Translations under genes and position numbers: made by a program
The notes under the pieces: model-generated
The model's input: only the letters and a program-made list of their open reading frames with translations
Told to the model about the DNA's origin: nothing
Database searches by the model: none
DNA from: an uncultured cyanobacterium
GTDB lineage: Bacteria; Cyanobacteriota; Vampirovibrionia; Gastranaerophilales; Gastranaerophilaceae
Length of the DNA stretch: 42,971 nucleotides
Assembly: GCA_945487905.1 (NCBI GenBank)
Contig: CALYTW010000004.1
Location: forward strand, 1-42,971
Direction of reading: 5' to 3'
Shown here: piece after piece, positions 5,468 through 38,696 of the stretch
How the letters are laid out: every line of letters begins with the position of its first letter
How positions within the stretch are numbered: the stretch's first letter is position 1

Positions 5468-7039
5468 TTAGCCCGAGAATGTTTTATAAGATTTTTCGAT
5501 ATTATCCTGAACTACTTTCTTAACAGCGTCAATTTCTGTATTTACCGCATTTCTTTCGTTATCAAGTCTTGTTAATTTCAATTCAAGATTTTTATCTTCC
5601 TGTTGGATAATTCTTGTCTTTGCGTTAATTTCTTCTTGTTTTACATCATATTGATATTTATCGTATTCATAACGAGCGTATGCATCTTGATATGCATTGC
5701 TGTCTGTTTCTTCTTTTGCTTCAAGCTTAAATGTTTTATAGCTTGTAATGTTGCCGTTGTTATCTTTAACCGGAATTTTTATCTCAGTGATTCTGCCTGA
5801 AGAATCAAAGGTTAACAAGCAGTCTTTCTTGTTTTCAACTTCTGTATACTTACCGTTTGCCTGATAATTATATGAAGTAATATAGTGAGTATTATTTACA
5901 TCAGAAAATGCTGTTGCAACATCCTGTGTCATAACAAAGTTTATAATACTCTTTCTTGTATCGGGGTCAGTTGTAAAGTATACGCTGAAATCCTGCATAA
6001 TTTTATCGTTTGTTGCATCAGCATAATCAGGAAAAGCATCTCTTATAGATTCTAAATATGCAGATATTTGGTCATCCGTTACATAACCGTTTTGAACAGC
6101 CGTATTAAGCGTATAGCAGGGAGATTCAGCTACCAGCCCAACCCAGTTATCACTGTCTACGTTGTTGTATGTACCTGCCTGATTACTCATACTTGCTACT
6201 GCAAGAGTAGCTGTTGGCGTATTTGCTAAAACATAGGTTCCGTCATCTAATTGTGTAAATTTTTCCAAATGTTCGCTTGCGTGGTATGCGTTTTGCGAAC
6301 CGTTTTCAACTACATAGTATCCGTTCAATTCACTTTCTGTATAACCGCCGCCTGTCTGAAGTGCAGGCGAAGAACCGAGATTATATGCTTCATCGTGATT
6401 AGGATCTGTTGTAGGATTGTAGTTTGGTAAACTAGCGTTATAAACTATTTTTGTAAATACTTCTTTTCCGGAATATTTTGAATTTGCACCCAAATCTGCT
6501 TCGGTTACTTCAATCAATTTAGTTCCGCTTTTTACATAATAAGTTCCTCCTGCCGTGATATTTTCGGCAAGATCTACATATTTCATAATAGTGTCACCGG
6601 TTTGAATAGGGGGGTTAGGGGAAATCCCCTGAGAAATACCTGAAATTGAATATGAAGACTGAGCTGTTCTGATATCGCTTACACCCAATGTTTCTAATTT
6701 AATTTCCCCTGTTGCTCTTCTTGCGGAAACAGTACCCGTTTCTGCCATATAATGACCTACTTTTGTATAATTAAGATCTACTGAATATGTTGTACCTGAA
6801 GGTGTAATCTGACCCAATGTAAATGTAGAAGCACCTTCTGTGCCAGTATATTTTACAGTTGTATAGTCTTGTGTAGATGGTGGTGTCGGAACATCCAAAG
6901 TTAGCAAACTGTTGTACAACGTATTTGCCTGCTGTGCAAGTGTTGTTCTCTGCTGGTTAATCTGCTGTCCTTGATACTCTATGTCACTCATGCGTGATGT
7001 TAAAGTAATTAACCTTGCTTGTGATGCTGACATACCCAT
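5468..7039 (-). CDS. Large unknown protein with helical ends, candidate surface filament protein
   Basis: I cannot assign this 523-residue protein to a named family. The first 50 residues (MGMSASQARLITLTSRMSD and on) are helical and rich in Gln, Ser and Leu. The last 76 residues form a strong heptad-like coiled coil ending in NIEKSYKTFSG. The roughly 400 residues between are rich in Thr, Ser, Asn, Tyr and Gly, like exposed beta structure, with only two Cys. There is no classical signal peptide. This layout matches flagellar axial proteins, whose terminal helices pack together around a variable middle, but I see no flagellin signature. Upstream lies a sigma-28-type promoter and a leader with two GGA motifs. 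My inference is a flagellum-associated or type III-exported protein. Confidence 0.6.
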   Translation of the reverse strand: MGMSASQARLITLTSRMSDIEYQGQQINQQRTTLAQQANTLYNSLLTLDVPTPPSTQDYTTVKYTGTEGASTFTLGQITPSGTTYSVDLNYTKVGHYMAETGTVSARRATGEIKLETLGVSDIRTAQSSYSISGISQGISPNPPIQTGDTIMKYVDLAENITAGGTYYVKSGTKLIEVTEADLGANSKYSGKEVFTKIVYNASLPNYNPTTDPNHDEAYNLGSSPALQTGGGYTESELNGYYVVENGSQNAYHASEHLEKFTQLDDGTYVLANTPTATLAVASMSNQAGTYNNVDSDNWVGLVAESPCYTLNTAVQNGYVTDDQISAYLESIRDAFPDYADATNDKIMQDFSVYFTTDPDTRKSIINFVMTQDVATAFSDVNNTHYITSYNYQANGKYTEVENKKDCLLTFDSSGRITEIKIPVKDNNGNITSYKTFKLEAKEETDSNAYQDAYARYEYDKYQYDVKQEEINAKTRIIQQEDKNLELKLTRLDNERNAVNTEIDAVKKVVQDNIEKSYKTFSG

Positions 7040-7070
7040 AATTTAGGTCTCCTTTTTCTTTTTCCTTGAC
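7040..7070 (-). promoter_or_regulatory. Leader with two GGA motifs, possible CsrA site
   Basis: On the minus strand the leader of the large unknown gene contains AAGGAAAAAG and AAGGAGACC, the second being the ribosome binding site about 9 bases before the ATG. The two GGA triplets are 10 bases apart. CsrA dimers bind pairs of GGA motifs, one often overlapping the ribosome binding site, as in the hag leader of Bacillus subtilis. This window encodes CsrA and FliW. Purine-rich leaders are common, so this is inference. Confidence 0.4.
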
Positions 7071-7074
7071 ATGT

Positions 7075-7101
7075 ATTACGGCATTTGTTCACAAAACTTT
7101 A
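7075..7101 (-). promoter_or_regulatory. Sigma-28 (FliA)-type promoter
   Basis: On the minus strand TAAA (7101-7098) is followed by exactly 15 bases and then GCCGTAAT (7082-7075). The sigma-28 consensus is TAAA-N15-GCCGATAA, so the -35 box and spacing are perfect and the -10 box keeps GCCG. Transcription would start about 30 bases before the ATG of the large unknown gene. Sigma-28 drives late flagellar and chemotaxis genes in many bacteria. Confidence 0.6.
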
Positions 7102-30017: not shown

Positions 30018-31037
30018 TTACACATCAGTTATTACAAGGCGTTTATCGGCAGATATTCTTTCAATATTTAATACTGTGTATAATGATGCTTCGTTAATAA
30101 ATTCACACAGATAATAACTTTCGGAAGCACCTTCCCGTGCAGGTTCTTCAAACTCAAAAATCTCATTAATTTTGTCTACCAGAAGTGCAAGTTGAAGTTC
30201 GTTGCACCTGATAATTATTACAGGCTTTTTCTCATTGATTTCTGATTTATTCTCAGTTAATGAATTGGAAGGAAGCCCCAAAAAAGACTTTAAGTCGACA
30301 ACTGTAATGTAATCACCTCTTAAATTCATTATTCCCATAATGAAATCAGGTACTCCAGGAACATGCATTATGGTTGTGTCATTTAAAATTTCTCTTACAT
30401 ACTCAAGGTATATACAATAAAAATCATTGTTCAGATTTAAGGAAATATACTTATTCTTTATCTGCCCTCCGCTTGAAGCTAAGCGGATTGCAGACTTTTC
30501 ATGCATATCTCTGGCTCTTTTGGCCATAATCCTTTTTGATTCTTCGTCCATAGGCATTAATGCAGGAATGTCCACAGGCAGGATTTTTGCATTATGATTT
30601 TTTAACAAACCTTCTATCGCATAGGTGTTTACAATAAAAATAGTTTCTTTGTCTTTTCTGTACAAAGATTCAATTACCATATTGCTGTCAGCAAAAGGTA
30701 TCTGGTCAACAAGGGATGAGTCAAAAGGTAATATCCCTAATATTTTGTCAGTTATAATACCAAAAATTACCTCATCTGTTTTTACAATAAGCAGTTCATT
30801 ATTAATACTGTACGGAGTCGCTTCTATGTCCAAATAGAACCTGATATCGACAACGCTTATTACAAAGTTGTTGTATTTCAAAAGACCTACAATATTGTTA
30901 GGAAGTTTTGATGGGTAATCAAGAGCCGGAAGCTTCATTATTTCAAGAACATTGTCGGAGTTGACGGCATATTTGTTTTCTCCGATTTTAAAATAAAGAT
31001 GAGTATTCTTCTTTTGCTCGATGTAATTATTGTTCAT
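30018..31037 (-). CDS. Protein with two CheW-like domains
   Basis: CheW adaptors couple chemoreceptors to the CheA kinase. This 339-residue protein carries two such domains. The first (about 10-150) has LYFKIGENKYAVNSDNVLEIM, PNNIVGLLKYNNFVISVVDIR and VKTDEVIFGIITDKILGI. The second (about 195-335) has KYISLNLNNDFYCIYLEYVREIL, VPDFIMGIMNLRGDYITVVDLK and LALLVDKINEI. I chose ATG 31037, where CATGAACAATAA overlaps the end of the upstream regulator gene; the frame is open to 31085 but lacks a ribosome binding site there. It is transcribed with the response regulator-cyclase. Confidence 0.88.
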   Translation of the reverse strand: MNNNYIEQKKNTHLYFKIGENKYAVNSDNVLEIMKLPALDYPSKLPNNIVGLLKYNNFVISVVDIRFYLDIEATPYSINNELLIVKTDEVIFGIITDKILGILPFDSSLVDQIPFADSNMVIESLYRKDKETIFIVNTYAIEGLLKNHNAKILPVDIPALMPMDEESKRIMAKRARDMHEKSAIRLASSGGQIKNKYISLNLNNDFYCIYLEYVREILNDTTIMHVPGVPDFIMGIMNLRGDYITVVDLKSFLGLPSNSLTENKSEINEKKPVIIIRCNELQLALLVDKINEIFEFEEPAREGASESYYLCEFINEASLYTVLNIERISADKRLVITDV

Positions 31038-32481
31038 GTACAACGACCCTGTTCCTGCCGCTTTCTTTAGCTTTATATAGAGCATCGTCTGCTGATTTTA
31101 AGATGTCTGCAGAGGATGTAAAGTCTTGATAATTCATTGTAAGTCCGATACTAACTGTAGCTTTTGACTTAATTCCGTTATATTCAAAGTCATATTCTTC
31201 AACAACACTTCTTAATCTCTGAACAGGTATCACAGCTCCTTCTATATATGTTTCTGGCATTATAATAACCATTTCTTCTCCGCCGTATCTGTACAACAAA
31301 TCAGTCTTCCTGAATGATTGTTTAAGCAAATCCGCAACAGTTTTGAGAACATAATCTCCATACTGATGTCCGTATGTATCATTGACCTTTTTAAAGAAAT
31401 CTATATCCAGTATCGCAAGTGAAAAATCCGCAGGATGACGTTTTGTACGATTATATTCCTGTTCTAAGCTGATTTCAAACTGTCTTCTGTTATAAAGCCC
31501 TGTCAAACCATCAAGAACCGACATAAATTCTTTTTCGTTATATTGATATTTCATCTTAAATATTGCAAGCAGTTCGCTTATCATAATATCAAAAAATCTG
31601 AATGATGAATAATCTACTTCTCGCCTTGTATAGAAACAAATACCGCCTATTAATTTCCTGTCAAAAATAAGAGGAATGATGATCTTAGAGGTAAAATCGG
31701 AAATCTGATAATCCACTTCTTTTCCGAGAAGCATTTTAACAACCTCAAATTTTGAATTTTTGACAGTTTTATGCTCTGCCATACTTTTAAAGAAATCTCT
31801 GCAAATATCGTTCAGCAGTGTTTTTGAGAGGTTTCTCCCGAGGGTGTCAAAATAAAGTATATTTTCCGCAAATTCATCGGGAGATGCAAAATAAATTCCC
31901 GCAACATGATATTCCACAAAAGAACTTAATAAGGAAAATAACTTTTCTACAAGAATTCTTTCATAATTCAAGAAGTCGCTTAGATTTCTGAATTCGTTTG
32001 AAAACGTACTCTTCATAAGCAGGTCGTTAAGAATATTGTTCAACTTAAATTGAGCCGTACTTGCCGATTCAGCTTTAGAAATAAGTGCTGTTTTATATTC
32101 ATCCTTTACAGGATATCTTCTTATGGTTGCATTAATTTGTGCAACAAGCTCTTTTATATCAATCGACTTAGATAAAAAGAGCTGAGCGCCTGATTTTTTG
32201 CCCCAAAAAGCATCGATTTTTTTGTCCATAACCGTTAGCAGAATTACCGGTATTTTTTTTGTTTCATCATCGTTCTTAATCATTCTGCATAGCTGATACC
32301 CGTCTATTGCCGGCATAACTATATCTGAAACAACTATGTCCGGAGCATAAGTGTATATTTTCTTGTATGCTTCAGAACCGCTGATGGCGGTTTCTATCTC
32401 AAAACCGTTTTGTTCAAGCCCGCTCTTTAAAAATTTCAATTCGGTTGCAGAGTCTTCTACCAATAAAATTTTGTATGCCAT
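31027..32481 (-). CDS. Response regulator with diguanylate cyclase (GGDEF) output
   Basis: The protein makes cyclic di-GMP from two GTP under phosphorylation control. An N-terminal receiver domain (about 4-118) has VEDS at 8-11, phosphoacceptor D53 in VVSDIVMP and the conserved Lys in LSKSID. The middle (about 150-310) resembles a GAF-type sensor. The C-terminal GGDEF domain (about 318-482) has DGLTGLYNRR, and the active loop reads GGEEM at 400-404, a conservative variant of GGEEF. RKTD five residues before it is the RxxD inhibitory site for product feedback. It overlaps the double-CheW gene by 11 bases and is divergent from the receptor gene. Confidence 0.92.
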   Translation of the reverse strand: MAYKILLVEDSATELKFLKSGLEQNGFEIETAISGSEAYKKIYTYAPDIVVSDIVMPAIDGYQLCRMIKNDDETKKIPVILLTVMDKKIDAFWGKKSGAQLFLSKSIDIKELVAQINATIRRYPVKDEYKTALISKAESASTAQFKLNNILNDLLMKSTFSNEFRNLSDFLNYERILVEKLFSLLSSFVEYHVAGIYFASPDEFAENILYFDTLGRNLSKTLLNDICRDFFKSMAEHKTVKNSKFEVVKMLLGKEVDYQISDFTSKIIIPLIFDRKLIGGICFYTRREVDYSSFRFFDIMISELLAIFKMKYQYNEKEFMSVLDGLTGLYNRRQFEISLEQEYNRTKRHPADFSLAILDIDFFKKVNDTYGHQYGDYVLKTVADLLKQSFRKTDLLYRYGGEEMVIIMPETYIEGAVIPVQRLRSVVEEYDFEYNGIKSKATVSIGLTMNYQDFTSSADILKSADDALYKAKESGRNRVVVHEQ

Positions 32482-32564
32482 ATAAACAGATATTCCAATT
32501 TTGTCGATTTTAGTATAAAATAATTATATACTAAATGTTAAAAAAAAACTATAGGAGAGAACTC

Positions 32565-33611
32565 GTGCTTGGAAATTTTAATTTTGGATTAAGTCAGAAG
32601 TTTAATATAAAATGCTGGATTGATATAGTTGTATTTACGATTCTGCTCGGTCTTTTTATATCCTTGTTCATAAGATATAACATCAACATGTATGAAGGTA
32701 TTGCATATATCGGAGCATTACTTCTGGTGTTTGTTCCTATGCATGTAATTACTAAAGATTGGATTGTAAAGTCGATAAGAAGTTCCTTATCAAAACACTC
32801 CGAAACTGTGTCCGGAGCTACGGCAGAAATGCTTGAAGTTTTTAATTCCCAAAAATTGATGCTTGACAGGCTTTGTGTAAATACGAAAAACATGTCTGCG
32901 ATGGTTGAAAAACTTAAAACTTTGGCTTCGGAAACGATTAATACTTCAAAAAGCACTGAAAAACAAATTAATCAATCAATTTCATACTCAAAGAAAGAAC
33001 ACGAAGCTGTTACAACAAATGCAGAAAAAATGCTTGTTTTAAGACAAAAAGTTCAAATGATAGCAGAATTAATCCTTGAATTATCCGAACATACACAGCA
33101 GATAGGAAATTCCATAAGTGTAGTTGATGACATAGCGGAACAAACAAACATGCTGGCTCTTAATGCTGCAGTTGAAGCTGCAAGAGCAGGAGAACACGGA
33201 AAAGGTTTTGCTGTTGTCGCAGGAGAAATCAGAAAACTTGCGGATGAATCAAAGCAGGCTATTACCAAGATTTCTTCTTTGACAAGTAATATCCAATATA
33301 CAACTAACTCTACGGTTATGGCTACGGAGGAAGGTTCTAAAGAAATTGAAAGTGTTGTAAAGGACATTGATCAGGTATCCTTGAGTTCCGAAGCATTAAT
33401 GAATCAGATTACAGAAATTTTTGAATCACTTGCAGCACTTAATCAATATGCGGAAAAACAGAGTGATATTATTGAAAAATTAAACATTCTTGATGATGAA
33501 AATATACAGTTCTCGTCAGATTTATCAGCTTTAATGACATCCGGTTCTGAAAAATTAAACAGATTGTACAGTCTGTCCGAAGGCATTAAAAATTCAGTAA
33601 CAGAAGGCTAA
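32565..33611 (+). CDS. Methyl-accepting chemotaxis protein without a sensory domain
   Basis: The 348-residue receptor has two close transmembrane helices (about 19-37 and 45-62) with no periplasmic sensor between them, followed by a long coiled coil. The signalling tip is fully conserved: [22 protein letters not shown] and [16 protein letters not shown] (about 188-228). It binds CheA and CheW but must sense through its membrane part or a partner. I chose GTG 32565 because AGGAGAG lies 5-6 bases upstream; an ATG at 32535 is in frame but places this ribosome binding site inside the gene. TATACT at 32528 may be its -10 box. CheA follows 5 bases later. Confidence 0.88.
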
Positions 33612-33616
33612 ATTAA

Positions 33617-36600
33617 TTGGATTTTCAGGATAACGAACAATATAATCAGGAGCTTATGAGTATCTTCCAAACAGAAACGGAAGATATTATTGAGCGGATT
33701 TTTGAAAACTTGATAAAACTTGAAAAAAAACCTGATGACAGAGCACTTGTAGCATCGCTTTATAGAGATATACACAGTCTTAAGGGTGCTGTAAGAATGG
33801 TCGGATTTAGTAATTTTCAAGATATTATTCATAGAATAGAAGATATTTTTGATATTGTTAAAGCTGATAATATATTTTTGGATTCCGGTAAGATAGGTGT
33901 CATAACTAAAGCCATAGAGCTTGTTTCGGGTTATATTCATGAATCAGTAAAAAATTCGAGAGAAATTATTGACGAAAATTATACACCTACGATTTCTGCT
34001 TTGGAATATATACGTGATATAGATTTAAAAACTCCTGCAAATTCCGATAATACAATGAATATGACGGCACTTAACTTGCCGGGTTTAGGCAATTTGGCTG
34101 AAATCGCAGGCTTGACTGCACCTACAGAACTTGAAAAAACTCCAAAACCTAAAGAGCCTAAAGTATCGATAATTCAGGAACATCAAGAAGAAATAAATTT
34201 TATTTTCAATCATTGTTTTGAACTTATTGACGGTATTGTTCCTGAGGAAGAATCACAGGAAACGGTAATTATAAAGGAAGAAGTTGAAAAAATATATGAA
34301 TATGTAAAAGACAGCAACTTTTATGAAGTAAAAACCGCATTAGAAGATATTATTGCCAAATTGGACTTTGTGCTTAATGCAACAAATATCTTTACCATAA
34401 GTGAAATTCTTGAAATGAGGGACACACTGAGTTCCGCTGCGGCAAAATTTAATACTTTGTGCATTGACAGTGAATCTTCAGGTTTATCTCTGTTTGATAT
34501 TTCCGAAAAAATTTCTATGCTCCAAAGCAGCAGCGTTTATGCAAAAGAAATAAAAGAAGATATAAACAATTTTAAAACTACTGTAAGTGACAACAGCATT
34601 CTTGAAATTATAAATATGCTGTTGGAAATACTCGATTTTATAACGGACAATTCTGTTCAACTTGAGGAACAGATGGTACAAACACTTAAAAGTGCATTGG
34701 AATATTGTGCATCTCCTAATGAAGGTATAGACGGAGATTTAATAATTCAGCAGTTAGAAATTATGAAACAACTGTTAGAATTAAACTTCAAAAAAGATAC
34801 CGGAATCAGCGAAATCAAGAATCTATCCGCACAGTCATCGCTTACAAGCAGAACCAATACTGAAATCAAAACTCTGCATGTAAACGCTCAAAAGCTTGAC
34901 CTGCTTGTTAATATGCTTGGAGAATTAATTATTACAAAAATCAAGGCGGAAAAAAATCTTGATAAAATTGATATTATCAAAAATTCAAATGAAATTTGCC
35001 AGAAAGATTTGCTTAAGACTTCAAATTATTTGAGATACTATAACCGTAAATACTTGCAAGCACAGGACAGCGAGCAGTACACAACTACATTTGTTAAGCA
35101 GGTATTTACTCTGCTGTCAGATATTACTCAGAATGTTTCAAGAACGATTTATGATTTGAATTCGCTTTATCGTTCATCAAAAGAAGACGATATGAAAATG
35201 CGTTTAATTATTGATGAAATGGAATCAATGGTTAAAAACATAAGAGTTTTGCCAATCTCAACAGTATTTAATTCTTTTACCAGAATGGTAAGAGATATCG
35301 CAATGGAAAAAGGAAAAGATATTGACTTTGAGATTCAGGGTAACGACACCTGTGCAGATAAAAAGATTATTGAAGAAATCAAAACTCCTTTGATTCACAT
35401 TTTGAGAAATGCTATCGATCACGGTATTGAAACCAAAGAAGATAGAATGCTTGCAGGTAAAAGCCCCGTAGGTAAAATTCTTTTGTCCGCAAAACATGAT
35501 GACAACAAAGTTGTTATAGATGTCGTCGATGACGGACAGGGATTTAATCTCGAAAAAATTAAGGAAAGGGCTGTTTCAAGAGGTTTTCTTACTCAGGAAG
35601 ATATTGATTCCATGTCAGATGATGCGATTATGAACATTATATTCTGGCCGGGATTCACCACAGGAGATTCAATTACAAGTATTTCAGGCAGAGGAATAGG
35701 GCTGGATGTCGTAAAGACAAAGATTTCTCAGCTAAACGGAAAGGTTAAAGTTATTTCTGAATACGGAAAAGGAAGCTGTGTACATATTGAAATTCCGGTC
35801 ACTCTTGCAACACTTAGGGTATTTTTGGTTAAAATATCCGAACAGACGTTTGCTATTCCGATACAGATGATTACGACTTTTGTGTTGAAAAAGCAGGATG
35901 AAATTAAAACCAATAATGGTAATCGTTCAATATTATTTAATGATAAAATTCTTCCTTTGTTTTATTTATCGGATTTTCTGGGGTTACCGACAAAAAAAAG
36001 GGGAGAAAAAGAAACAGTACTTATTATTGAAGCAGATGAAAAATCAATCGGTCTTGTTGTAGATAAACTGCTCGGCGATCAGGATATATTACAAAAGAAA
36101 CTTCCTCCGCCTCTTTACAAGGTTAAAAATATATCCGGAATTACGAATCTTGCATCGGGCGAATTATGTTTGATTCTCAATATGCAGGACATATTACACT
36201 ATGATTTTAATAAGAGTATAAACAATGCCTATCCGATAGCATTTTTACAGCAGGACAAGATATTGTCGAAGCGTGTACTTGTTGTAGACGATTCGATGAC
36301 AACGAGAACTATGCTGAAAAATATATTAACCAACATGGGCTGTTCGGTTGAAGTAGCTGTAGATCCGGACGAAGCTTTTACCAAGATGAAAGGAAATCAT
36401 TTTAATTTGATTCTGACTGATTTGGATATGCCTGTAATGGACGGATTCCAGTTTATTGAGATTCTTCAAAATGATGAAAAATATGCTGATATTCCGATAA
36501 TAGTTATGAGTTCAAACTCAAAAGTTAAAGTTTCCAACCAACTTAAAAAATATAATATAGAAGGCTATATACAGAAAGATTCGTTTGAACAGAATTCATT

Positions 36601-36643
36601 TACCGAACTTGTTAAAAAGACACTTGAAAAAATATCCGATTAA
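33617..36643 (+). CDS. Hybrid CheA histidine kinase with receiver domain
   Basis: This 1008-residue kinase starts with an HPt domain with H53 in RDIHSLKGAVRMVGF, then a helical region of about 300 residues. A dimerisation domain follows, then HATPase with HILRNAIDHGIE (N box), DVVDDGQGF and GRGIGLDVV. A CheW-like domain begins at about 740, and a receiver domain from about 885 has phosphoacceptor D935 (LTDLDMPVMDG). The fused receiver is typical of PilL/ChpA and related type IV pilus or gliding systems rather than simple flagellar CheA. The start is TTG. The 3' end overlaps the convergent coiled-coil gene by 4 bases. No separate cheY, cheR or cheB is in the window. Confidence 0.93.
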   Translation: MDFQDNEQYNQELMSIFQTETEDIIERIFENLIKLEKKPDDRALVASLYRDIHSLKGAVRMVGFSNFQDIIHRIEDIFDIVKADNIFLDSGKIGVITKAIELVSGYIHESVKNSREIIDENYTPTISALEYIRDIDLKTPANSDNTMNMTALNLPGLGNLAEIAGLTAPTELEKTPKPKEPKVSIIQEHQEEINFIFNHCFELIDGIVPEEESQETVIIKEEVEKIYEYVKDSNFYEVKTALEDIIAKLDFVLNATNIFTISEILEMRDTLSSAAAKFNTLCIDSESSGLSLFDISEKISMLQSSSVYAKEIKEDINNFKTTVSDNSILEIINMLLEILDFITDNSVQLEEQMVQTLKSALEYCASPNEGIDGDLIIQQLEIMKQLLELNFKKDTGISEIKNLSAQSSLTSRTNTEIKTLHVNAQKLDLLVNMLGELIITKIKAEKNLDKIDIIKNSNEICQKDLLKTSNYLRYYNRKYLQAQDSEQYTTTFVKQVFTLLSDITQNVSRTIYDLNSLYRSSKEDDMKMRLIIDEMESMVKNIRVLPISTVFNSFTRMVRDIAMEKGKDIDFEIQGNDTCADKKIIEEIKTPLIHILRNAIDHGIETKEDRMLAGKSPVGKILLSAKHDDNKVVIDVVDDGQGFNLEKIKERAVSRGFLTQEDIDSMSDDAIMNIIFWPGFTTGDSITSISGRGIGLDVVKTKISQLNGKVKVISEYGKGSCVHIEIPVTLATLRVFLVKISEQTFAIPIQMITTFVLKKQDEIKTNNGNRSILFNDKILPLFYLSDFLGLPTKKRGEKETVLIIEADEKSIGLVVDKLLGDQDILQKKLPPPLYKVKNISGITNLASGELCLILNMQDILHYDFNKSINNAYPIAFLQQDKILSKRVLVVDDSMTTRTMLKNILTNMGCSVEVAVDPDEAFTKMKGNHFNLILTDLDMPVMDGFQFIEILQNDEKYADIPIIVMSSNSKVKVSNQLKKYNIEGYIQKDSFEQNSFTELVKKTLEKISD

Positions 36644-37916: not shown

Positions 37917-38252
37917 CTACTGATTATTTTGTTTTTTGATAATAAATTTTGGTTTATTAGGCTGGTCGTTGACAATTTCACTTGCTTCCGAGGTTTGTTC
38001 GACCTTATCATTAAGCTTGATATTATTATCCTTAAGCAGATTGGATACAGAATCAACAGAATTAAGGTTTGTATTTTTACCGACGAGATTAGCAAGTTTA
38101 ACCTGATAATAAATTTCTTCTCTATATATTTTAACATCTTTATCCGCTTCAATAGCGATTTTACACTGTCCGTTTCGAGATTCGACAATAGTAATGACAA
38201 TATTGTCATTAATCATTATTTTTTGACCGTTTTTTCTTGAAATTACTAACAT
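37917..38252 (-). CDS. csrA: Carbon storage regulator CsrA with extended C-terminus
   Basis: CsrA is a dimeric RNA-binding protein that blocks translation by binding GGA motifs in mRNA leaders. The core (1-60) is canonical: MLVISRKNGQKIMINDNIVI, then CKIAIEADKDVKIYREEIY, with Arg44-type basic residues retained. The tail of about 50 residues is rich in Asn, Asp, Lys and Ser and looks disordered; most CsrA proteins end at 60-75 residues. It lies 12 bases after fliW, the standard arrangement in which FliW sequesters CsrA until flagellin binds FliW. Identification of the core is secure. Confidence 0.93.
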   Translation of the reverse strand: MLVISRKNGQKIMINDNIVITIVESRNGQCKIAIEADKDVKIYREEIYYQVKLANLVGKNTNLNSVDSVSNLLKDNNIKLNDKVEQTSEASEIVNDQPNKPKFIIKKQNNQ

Positions 38253-38264
38253 CTATATCCTTAA

Positions 38265-38696
38265 CTAAACTTTTTTAAACAATGGAAAACTGATATCATA
38301 TCCGGAACCAGATAGTATAACTTGTCCTGCAACATGCTTATCCAAATTGAATACTAAAGGCGCAAGCAGATTAATTGTAGTACCGTGCGGGTTATCCTGC
38401 GGAATTGAAGCTATATTCATGACAAGCAAATCTTCAACTTTGCTAATTCCGAGCTTTTCTACCACTTCATCTGTCAAATTTATTGAATAATCAACATTCA
38501 TGCTGAATACTGATATTATAGGAAACGCCAAAGACGGGTCTTCTGTAGATTGAAGCCACTTGAAAAAACTGTCCTGATTAGCATCTAGAATAATAAATTT
38601 TCTAAGTTCGCCAAAACCTATTATAGGAAGTTTGAAATCAAAAATCCTATCTTCTTCAATCTCTATTTCTCCAAATCTTACTGTATTGATTTTCAT
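38265..38696 (-). CDS. fliW: Flagellar assembly factor FliW
   Basis: FliW binds flagellin and CsrA and couples filament export to flagellin translation. The 143-residue protein has the family pattern: VRFGEIEIEEDRIFDFKLPIIGFGELRKFIIL in pieces, a central SFFKWLQSTEDPSLAFPII, and LLVMNIASIPQD with TINLLAPLVFN. This central W-L-Q-S-x-E-D-P-x-L-A-F block is diagnostic. The gene is followed by csrA 12 bases later and preceded 14 bases earlier by a secreted TPR protein gene. Its presence argues that the organism makes, or recently made, flagella. Confidence 0.93.
   Translation of the reverse strand: MKINTVRFGEIEIEEDRIFDFKLPIIGFGELRKFIILDANQDSFFKWLQSTEDPSLAFPIISVFSMNVDYSINLTDEVVEKLGISKVEDLLVMNIASIPQDNPHGTTINLLAPLVFNLDKHVAGQVILSGSGYDISFPLFKKV

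Follow-up and report, generated by a model that had tools for sequence, protein, structure and literature searches.

Conserved ends flanking a variable middle are the pattern typical of flagellin-like proteins. Among the flagellar axial proteins, the flagellin FliC and FlgL have a variable domain set between conserved helices at the two termini, carry no signal peptide, and possess a sigma-28-type promoter, and the rod protein FlgG and the hook protein FlgE have two terminal helices linked via beta structure. In the gut relatives of the cyanobacteria, incomplete sets of flagellar genes have been attributed to loss: Di Rienzi 2013 described a gut genome that had no filament, cap, junction, or ring genes and kept others, which was read as reduction (PMC3787301), and Soo 2014 judged partial flagellar gene sets to be non-functional and inferred loss (PMC4040986). 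No title or abstract that we found, in an incomplete coverage of the literature, describes a second type III system in the Gastranaerophilales. Here we analyze a stretch of 42,971 nucleotides (contig CALYTW010000004.1 of assembly GCA_945487905.1; hereafter the window) from an uncultured member of that order, and report that a 523-amino-acid (aa) protein encoded in it belongs to a large, previously unrecognized family of proteins that appear to be built like flagellar subunits, the MGMAASQAR family. We judge it somewhat probable that these are axial-type proteins exported by a second flagellar-type system and assembled beyond its rod as a filament, tip, or cap.

The family is ubiquitous in the order, with several matches per genome in all 241 of the 241 Gastranaerophilales genomes covered by a profile search (50 genera). 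Paralogues alike at the N terminus, for which the original prediction (a reading of the window's sequence alone) had suggested looking, do exist: the source genome encodes three more, of 386, 387, and 604 aa, and they have both ends in common with the window protein. Among 43 members, median pairwise identity reaches 72% over the first 60 residues and 63% over the last 76 (residues 448 to 523 of the window protein), and is only 22% in the middle. Neither the window protein nor its family has a convincing match in Pfam, NCBIfam, or PHROGs. Copies of equal length also occur; two 353-aa members in L150 (1469-2530 and 18561-19622), ~17 kb apart, are identical across the 120 residues compared, and similar equal-score pairs are found in other genomes too. 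We took family matches in two records, one titled Candidatus Ruminimicrobiellum (L176) and the other Fusobacterium (L230), as probable mis-binning. A 107-aa operon neighbor was tried as a minimal family member and not accepted, the hhalign match (E value of 0.001, probability of 21% over 38 residues) being a lead only.

The gene and its parts lie in the window as follows:

5468 to 7039, minus strand: open reading frame (ORF) of 523 aa with an ATG start, encoding a putative axial-type substrate of type III export (MGMAASQAR family)
7049 to 7053, minus strand: ribosome-binding site AGGAG, 9 nt ahead of the ATG
6902 to 7036, minus strand: conserved N-terminal helix, residues 2 to 46, signature M-G-M-x-A-S-Q-A-R (AlphaFold, with confidence scores mostly >90, and pairwise identity)
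6719 to 6862, minus strand: beta-rich segment after the N-terminal helix, residues 60 to 107 (AlphaFold)
5702 to 6715, minus strand: variable middle, residues 109 to 446, with a beta sheet at 386 to 445 (identity, and a low predicted local distance difference test [pLDDT] score at about 109 to 230)
5474 to 5701, minus strand: conserved C-terminal helix, residues 447 to 522 (AlphaFold and pairwise identity)
7076 to 7101, minus strand: sigma-28-type promoter TAAAGTTT-N11-GCCGTAA, located 36 bp upstream of the ATG

The ORF is genuine; the longest ORF on the opposite (plus) strand of the same interval is 85 aa. The original prediction had described a 523-residue protein with a Gln/Ser-rich helical N terminus, a Thr/Ser/Asn-rich middle, a 76-residue C-terminal helix, and no classical signal peptide, and each of these descriptions was accurate. 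Gln and Ser make up 26% of the first 50 residues, Thr, Ser, and Asn make up 29% of the middle, and the predicted C-terminal helix has exactly the length given. Mean hydropathy over 19 residues never exceeds 0.73 in the protein or 0.16 at its N terminus, and without a hydrophobic N-terminal segment there is no classical (cleavable) signal peptide.

The flagellin-like layout that had been proposed for this protein was recovered by structure prediction, with long terminal helices around a beta-rich center and structural neighbors that are mostly flagellar axial proteins. In the AlphaFold model of the window protein, both terminal helices have a pLDDT of about 95 across most of their length and lie beside beta structure, and the stretch from about residue 109 to 230 is largely unpredicted, with low pLDDT. 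For a 324-aa member whose genome has no flagellin, the prediction covers the full length (mean pLDDT of 86.6) and gives a helix at residues 2 to 47, a beta-rich head, and a helix at 249 to 323; the top two Foldseek matches of this model are flagellar filament-assembly or cap complexes (E values of 0.03 and 0.12). VIA-align, with both ends aligned, lists mostly flagellins and FlgL (Z of 8.1 to 8.8 over both ends), FliD/cap complexes (Z of about 9), FlgG-type rod proteins, and the FlgE hook protein, and 58 to 59 residues of both family termini superpose on FlgE (3a69) at about 1 Å. The pairing of the terminal helices is visible through structural superposition only. Since scores of this size may, for helical proteins, reflect no more than a common arrangement, the assignment to an axial fold is suggestive, strengthened by the identity of the proteins that fill the match list.

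The distribution of the family follows an export gate and not the flagellum. In a class-wide sample of 156 genomes, the family occurs in 78, the FHIPEP/FlhA export gate in 102, and flagellin in 30. FHIPEP is present in 78/78 family-positive genomes, and the family in 0/54 FHIPEP-less genomes, which accords with the type III export originally proposed (Fisher P = 5e-23, uncorrected for shared ancestry). Flagellin, in turn, is missing from 57 of the 78 carriers, and a flagellum-specific function, which we considered, was rejected on this distribution. In all seven flagellin-less carriers examined for it, FliD_N had no match either, and FliP, rod, and SctQ/FliN-type proteins were retained. Another 24 genomes are FHIPEP positive and family negative; all belong to three other families of the class.

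In a tree built from 32 FlhA proteins, two clades are distinct: the flagellar FlhA1 and a second one, FlhA2. Within FlhA2, family-positive taxa form one clade with 100/100 support and family-negative taxa form its sister, a topology that indicates that the MGMAASQAR family follows one FlhA2 clade. FlhA2 is present in all order genomes sampled except four with a partial FHIPEP match. It scores under the NCBIfam cutoffs for both FlhA (705 of 772) and SctV (593 of 692), closer to FlhA. Flagellin-less genomes encode it in an operon of FliE, FliF, one protein without assignment, FliH, and FlhA2; an SctQ/FliN-type protein followed by FliP, FliQ, and FliR lies at a separate site, and an FlgF/G-FlgF/G-FlgB-FlgC rod operon is found near a FliA-type sigma gene.

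About 24 genomes, drawn from several genera, encode a family member 6 to 15 kb from FlhA2. With so many copies in each genome, an isolated instance of such proximity could be chance. The stronger point is a repeated gene set: at the loci read in genera g2, g4, and g11, a family member heads a conserved series near FliE-FliF-FliH-FlhA2, in the order family member, 272-aa glycine-rich protein, helical proteins of 90 and about 108 aa, and a 205-aa-type protein. The set common to the three genera may be one inherited arrangement. Versions of the glycine-rich protein (272 to 283 aa) that follow operon-type members (L035:3188-4033, L070:14926-15744, and L148:4584-5402) have a moderately hydrophobic segment and are possibly translocon-like. 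Elsewhere in the order, G000:C67 (L034:3872-5338) and its equivalents encode a protein of ~490 aa that matches the C-terminal cytoplasmic part of FlhA only; in L040 it lies near FlgE, FlgD, FliK-like, and FliJ-like genes. The sister FlhA2 clade of families f10, f11, and f12 (L120-L129), which does not have the MGMAASQAR family, represents a related system.

Promoters of the flagellar class also accompany the family. The sigma-28-type promoter claimed upstream of the window gene is there, and its pattern appeared in none of 100 shuffles of the window (0 in 100). The 1.66-Mb source genome has five such sites, all of them followed within ~70 bp by an ORF, which in three cases is a family member (C4, C15, and C50); C50 and a FliA/WhiG-type sigma gene are oriented divergently. 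Across the family, 131 distinct members have enough upstream sequence for the comparison, and 44 of these have a sigma-28-type promoter, with 0.07 expected from shuffles, and the 44 include members from flagellin-less genomes. The other two sites in the source genome precede an 823-aa EF-hand-like protein (L146:1526-3997) and a 172-aa protein (L141:1549-2067), both candidate co-regulated substrates. Upstream of operon-type members (L002 and L041-L069), a different and apparently conserved element, roughly TTGACTTTT followed by ATTAAA, replaces the sigma-28-type promoter; the pattern that we tried for it did not confirm conservation.

A rod-bearing base with no known cap or filament, a multi-copy axial-like family, and flagellar-class promoters together lead us to propose that the family supplies the external part of the second system. 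A FliA-type sigma factor would transcribe the window gene and other members; the unprocessed protein would be exported by the second type III system, which has an FlhA clade to itself. Beyond the FlgB/FlgC/FlgF-type rod, it would join its paralogues in a surface structure made without flagellin, be it a filament, a tip, or a cap. Packing of the terminal helices would form the tube or cap and leave the variable head exposed. We infer the export, the machine that carries it out, the assembly, and which of these three structures results. The chances are about even that the expanded filament-like family replaces hook and flagellin as the external part of this machine, and that the "decaying flagellum" is a machine for contact or delivery in non-motile gut bacteria.

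The second system is best regarded as largely non-flagellar, and the family as not tied to the flagellum. Its members might work like flagellin, FliD, or rod and hook proteins and, judged by sequence, are not themselves members of those families. Unlike FliC and FlgL, the window protein has no Flagellin_N match (PF00669 is not listed by hmmscan against Pfam even at an E value of 10), and the family has a shorter N-terminal helix, has a single long C-terminal helix, and occurs in flagellin-less genomes. Unlike FliD, it is multi-copy, and FliD_N (PF02465) is absent among the window protein's Pfam matches at an E value of 10. Unlike FlgG and FlgE, it shows no Pfam match to Flg_bb_rod or Flg_bbr_C. 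In an injectisome, the equivalent place beyond the basal body is held by SctF, EspA, and IpaD/LcrV, and the SctQ-FliPQR gene order of the second system is injectisome-like; the base, however, is flagellar (FliE, FliF, and FlgB/C/F). SctF, EspA, and IpaD/LcrV did not match the family in any search; needle and tip families are also missing from the structure-match lists, an absence that excludes nothing. The gene content resembles the published "incomplete flagella" of the order, with flgC, flgG, fliF, fliH, and flhA and without filament and cap, but here the FlhA clade is conserved, stands apart, and has a substrate-like family of its own. These data suggest that what passes for decayed flagella in the gut cyanobacterial relatives is a second, working machine for export, equipped with surface parts of its own. 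That such a machine operates in non-motile members of a very common gut lineage thereby becomes a testable alternative to degeneration, and, if the proposal is true, a new axial-type protein family is added to a class with few, ancient known members.

Several results weigh against this proposal. A profile search of Protein Data Bank sequences returned no relative and no axial protein, and profile comparison of the family with rod proteins from its own lineage showed no similarity. Foldseek found nothing at an E value of <0.001 for either the window protein or the 324-aa member; the VIA-align scores against axial proteins (Z of 7 to 9.6) are under the tool's safe level for helical proteins, and 7ylm and 6rw8, unrelated proteins in which long helices are paired, rank equally high. 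Covariation between the helices shows a weak antiparallel trend (P = 0.05 to 0.19) at an effective number of sequences of 19. Co-occurrence with the gate is phylogenetically clustered and so represents few independent events, and four family-positive genomes (G045, G122, G219, and G239) have only partial FHIPEP matches, perhaps because of assembly gaps. Finally, members are multi-copy and dispersed, several are monocistronic, and their middles are highly variable, as might be expected if the second system exported them as effectors or adhesins that build no filament. In that case the N terminus would serve as the export signal, a chaperone or partner would bind the C-terminal coiled coil, and activity would reside in the variable middle; the adjoining 272-aa glycine-rich protein could be translocon-like. 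We consider this explanation unlikely: effectors as a rule have the N-terminal signal alone in common, whereas here both ends are conserved to the last residues, matching the paired terminal helices of axial proteins.

The source genome carries flagellin, FliD, and FlhA1, and together with the sigma-28-type promoter before the window gene this would fit an accessory of its genuine flagellum, such as a sheath or minor filament protein. Yet the family is equally abundant in flagellin-less genomes, with the same promoter type, and flagellated f10 genomes do not have it, so that this role appears highly improbable. Of the original suggestion of a flagellum-associated or type III-exported protein, the export half is favored by the gate co-occurrence and the axial-like fold, and the flagellar half falls with the 57 carriers that have no flagellin. 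Most improbable is a cytoplasmic coiled-coil or S-layer-like protein outside type III export: the clade-clustered association, with its four partial FHIPEP genomes, could be a by-product of shared ancestry, and no sequence link to axial proteins was found, but the recurrent proximity to the FlhA2 operon, the sigma-28-type promoters, the exclusive presence in the FlhA2 clade, and the resemblance of the fold to axial proteins speak against it.

The immediate neighbors of the gene in the window are ftsH and an lptF/lptG-type permease, not flagellar genes. FliW (38265-38696) and CsrA (37917-38252), cited originally in favor of a flagellar link, are both present in the window, but at ~31 kb from the family gene they are unlinked and lend it no specific support. 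A chemotaxis cluster occupies 30018-36643 of the window and encodes CheW, a GGDEF response regulator, a methyl-accepting chemotaxis protein, and a CheA hybrid.
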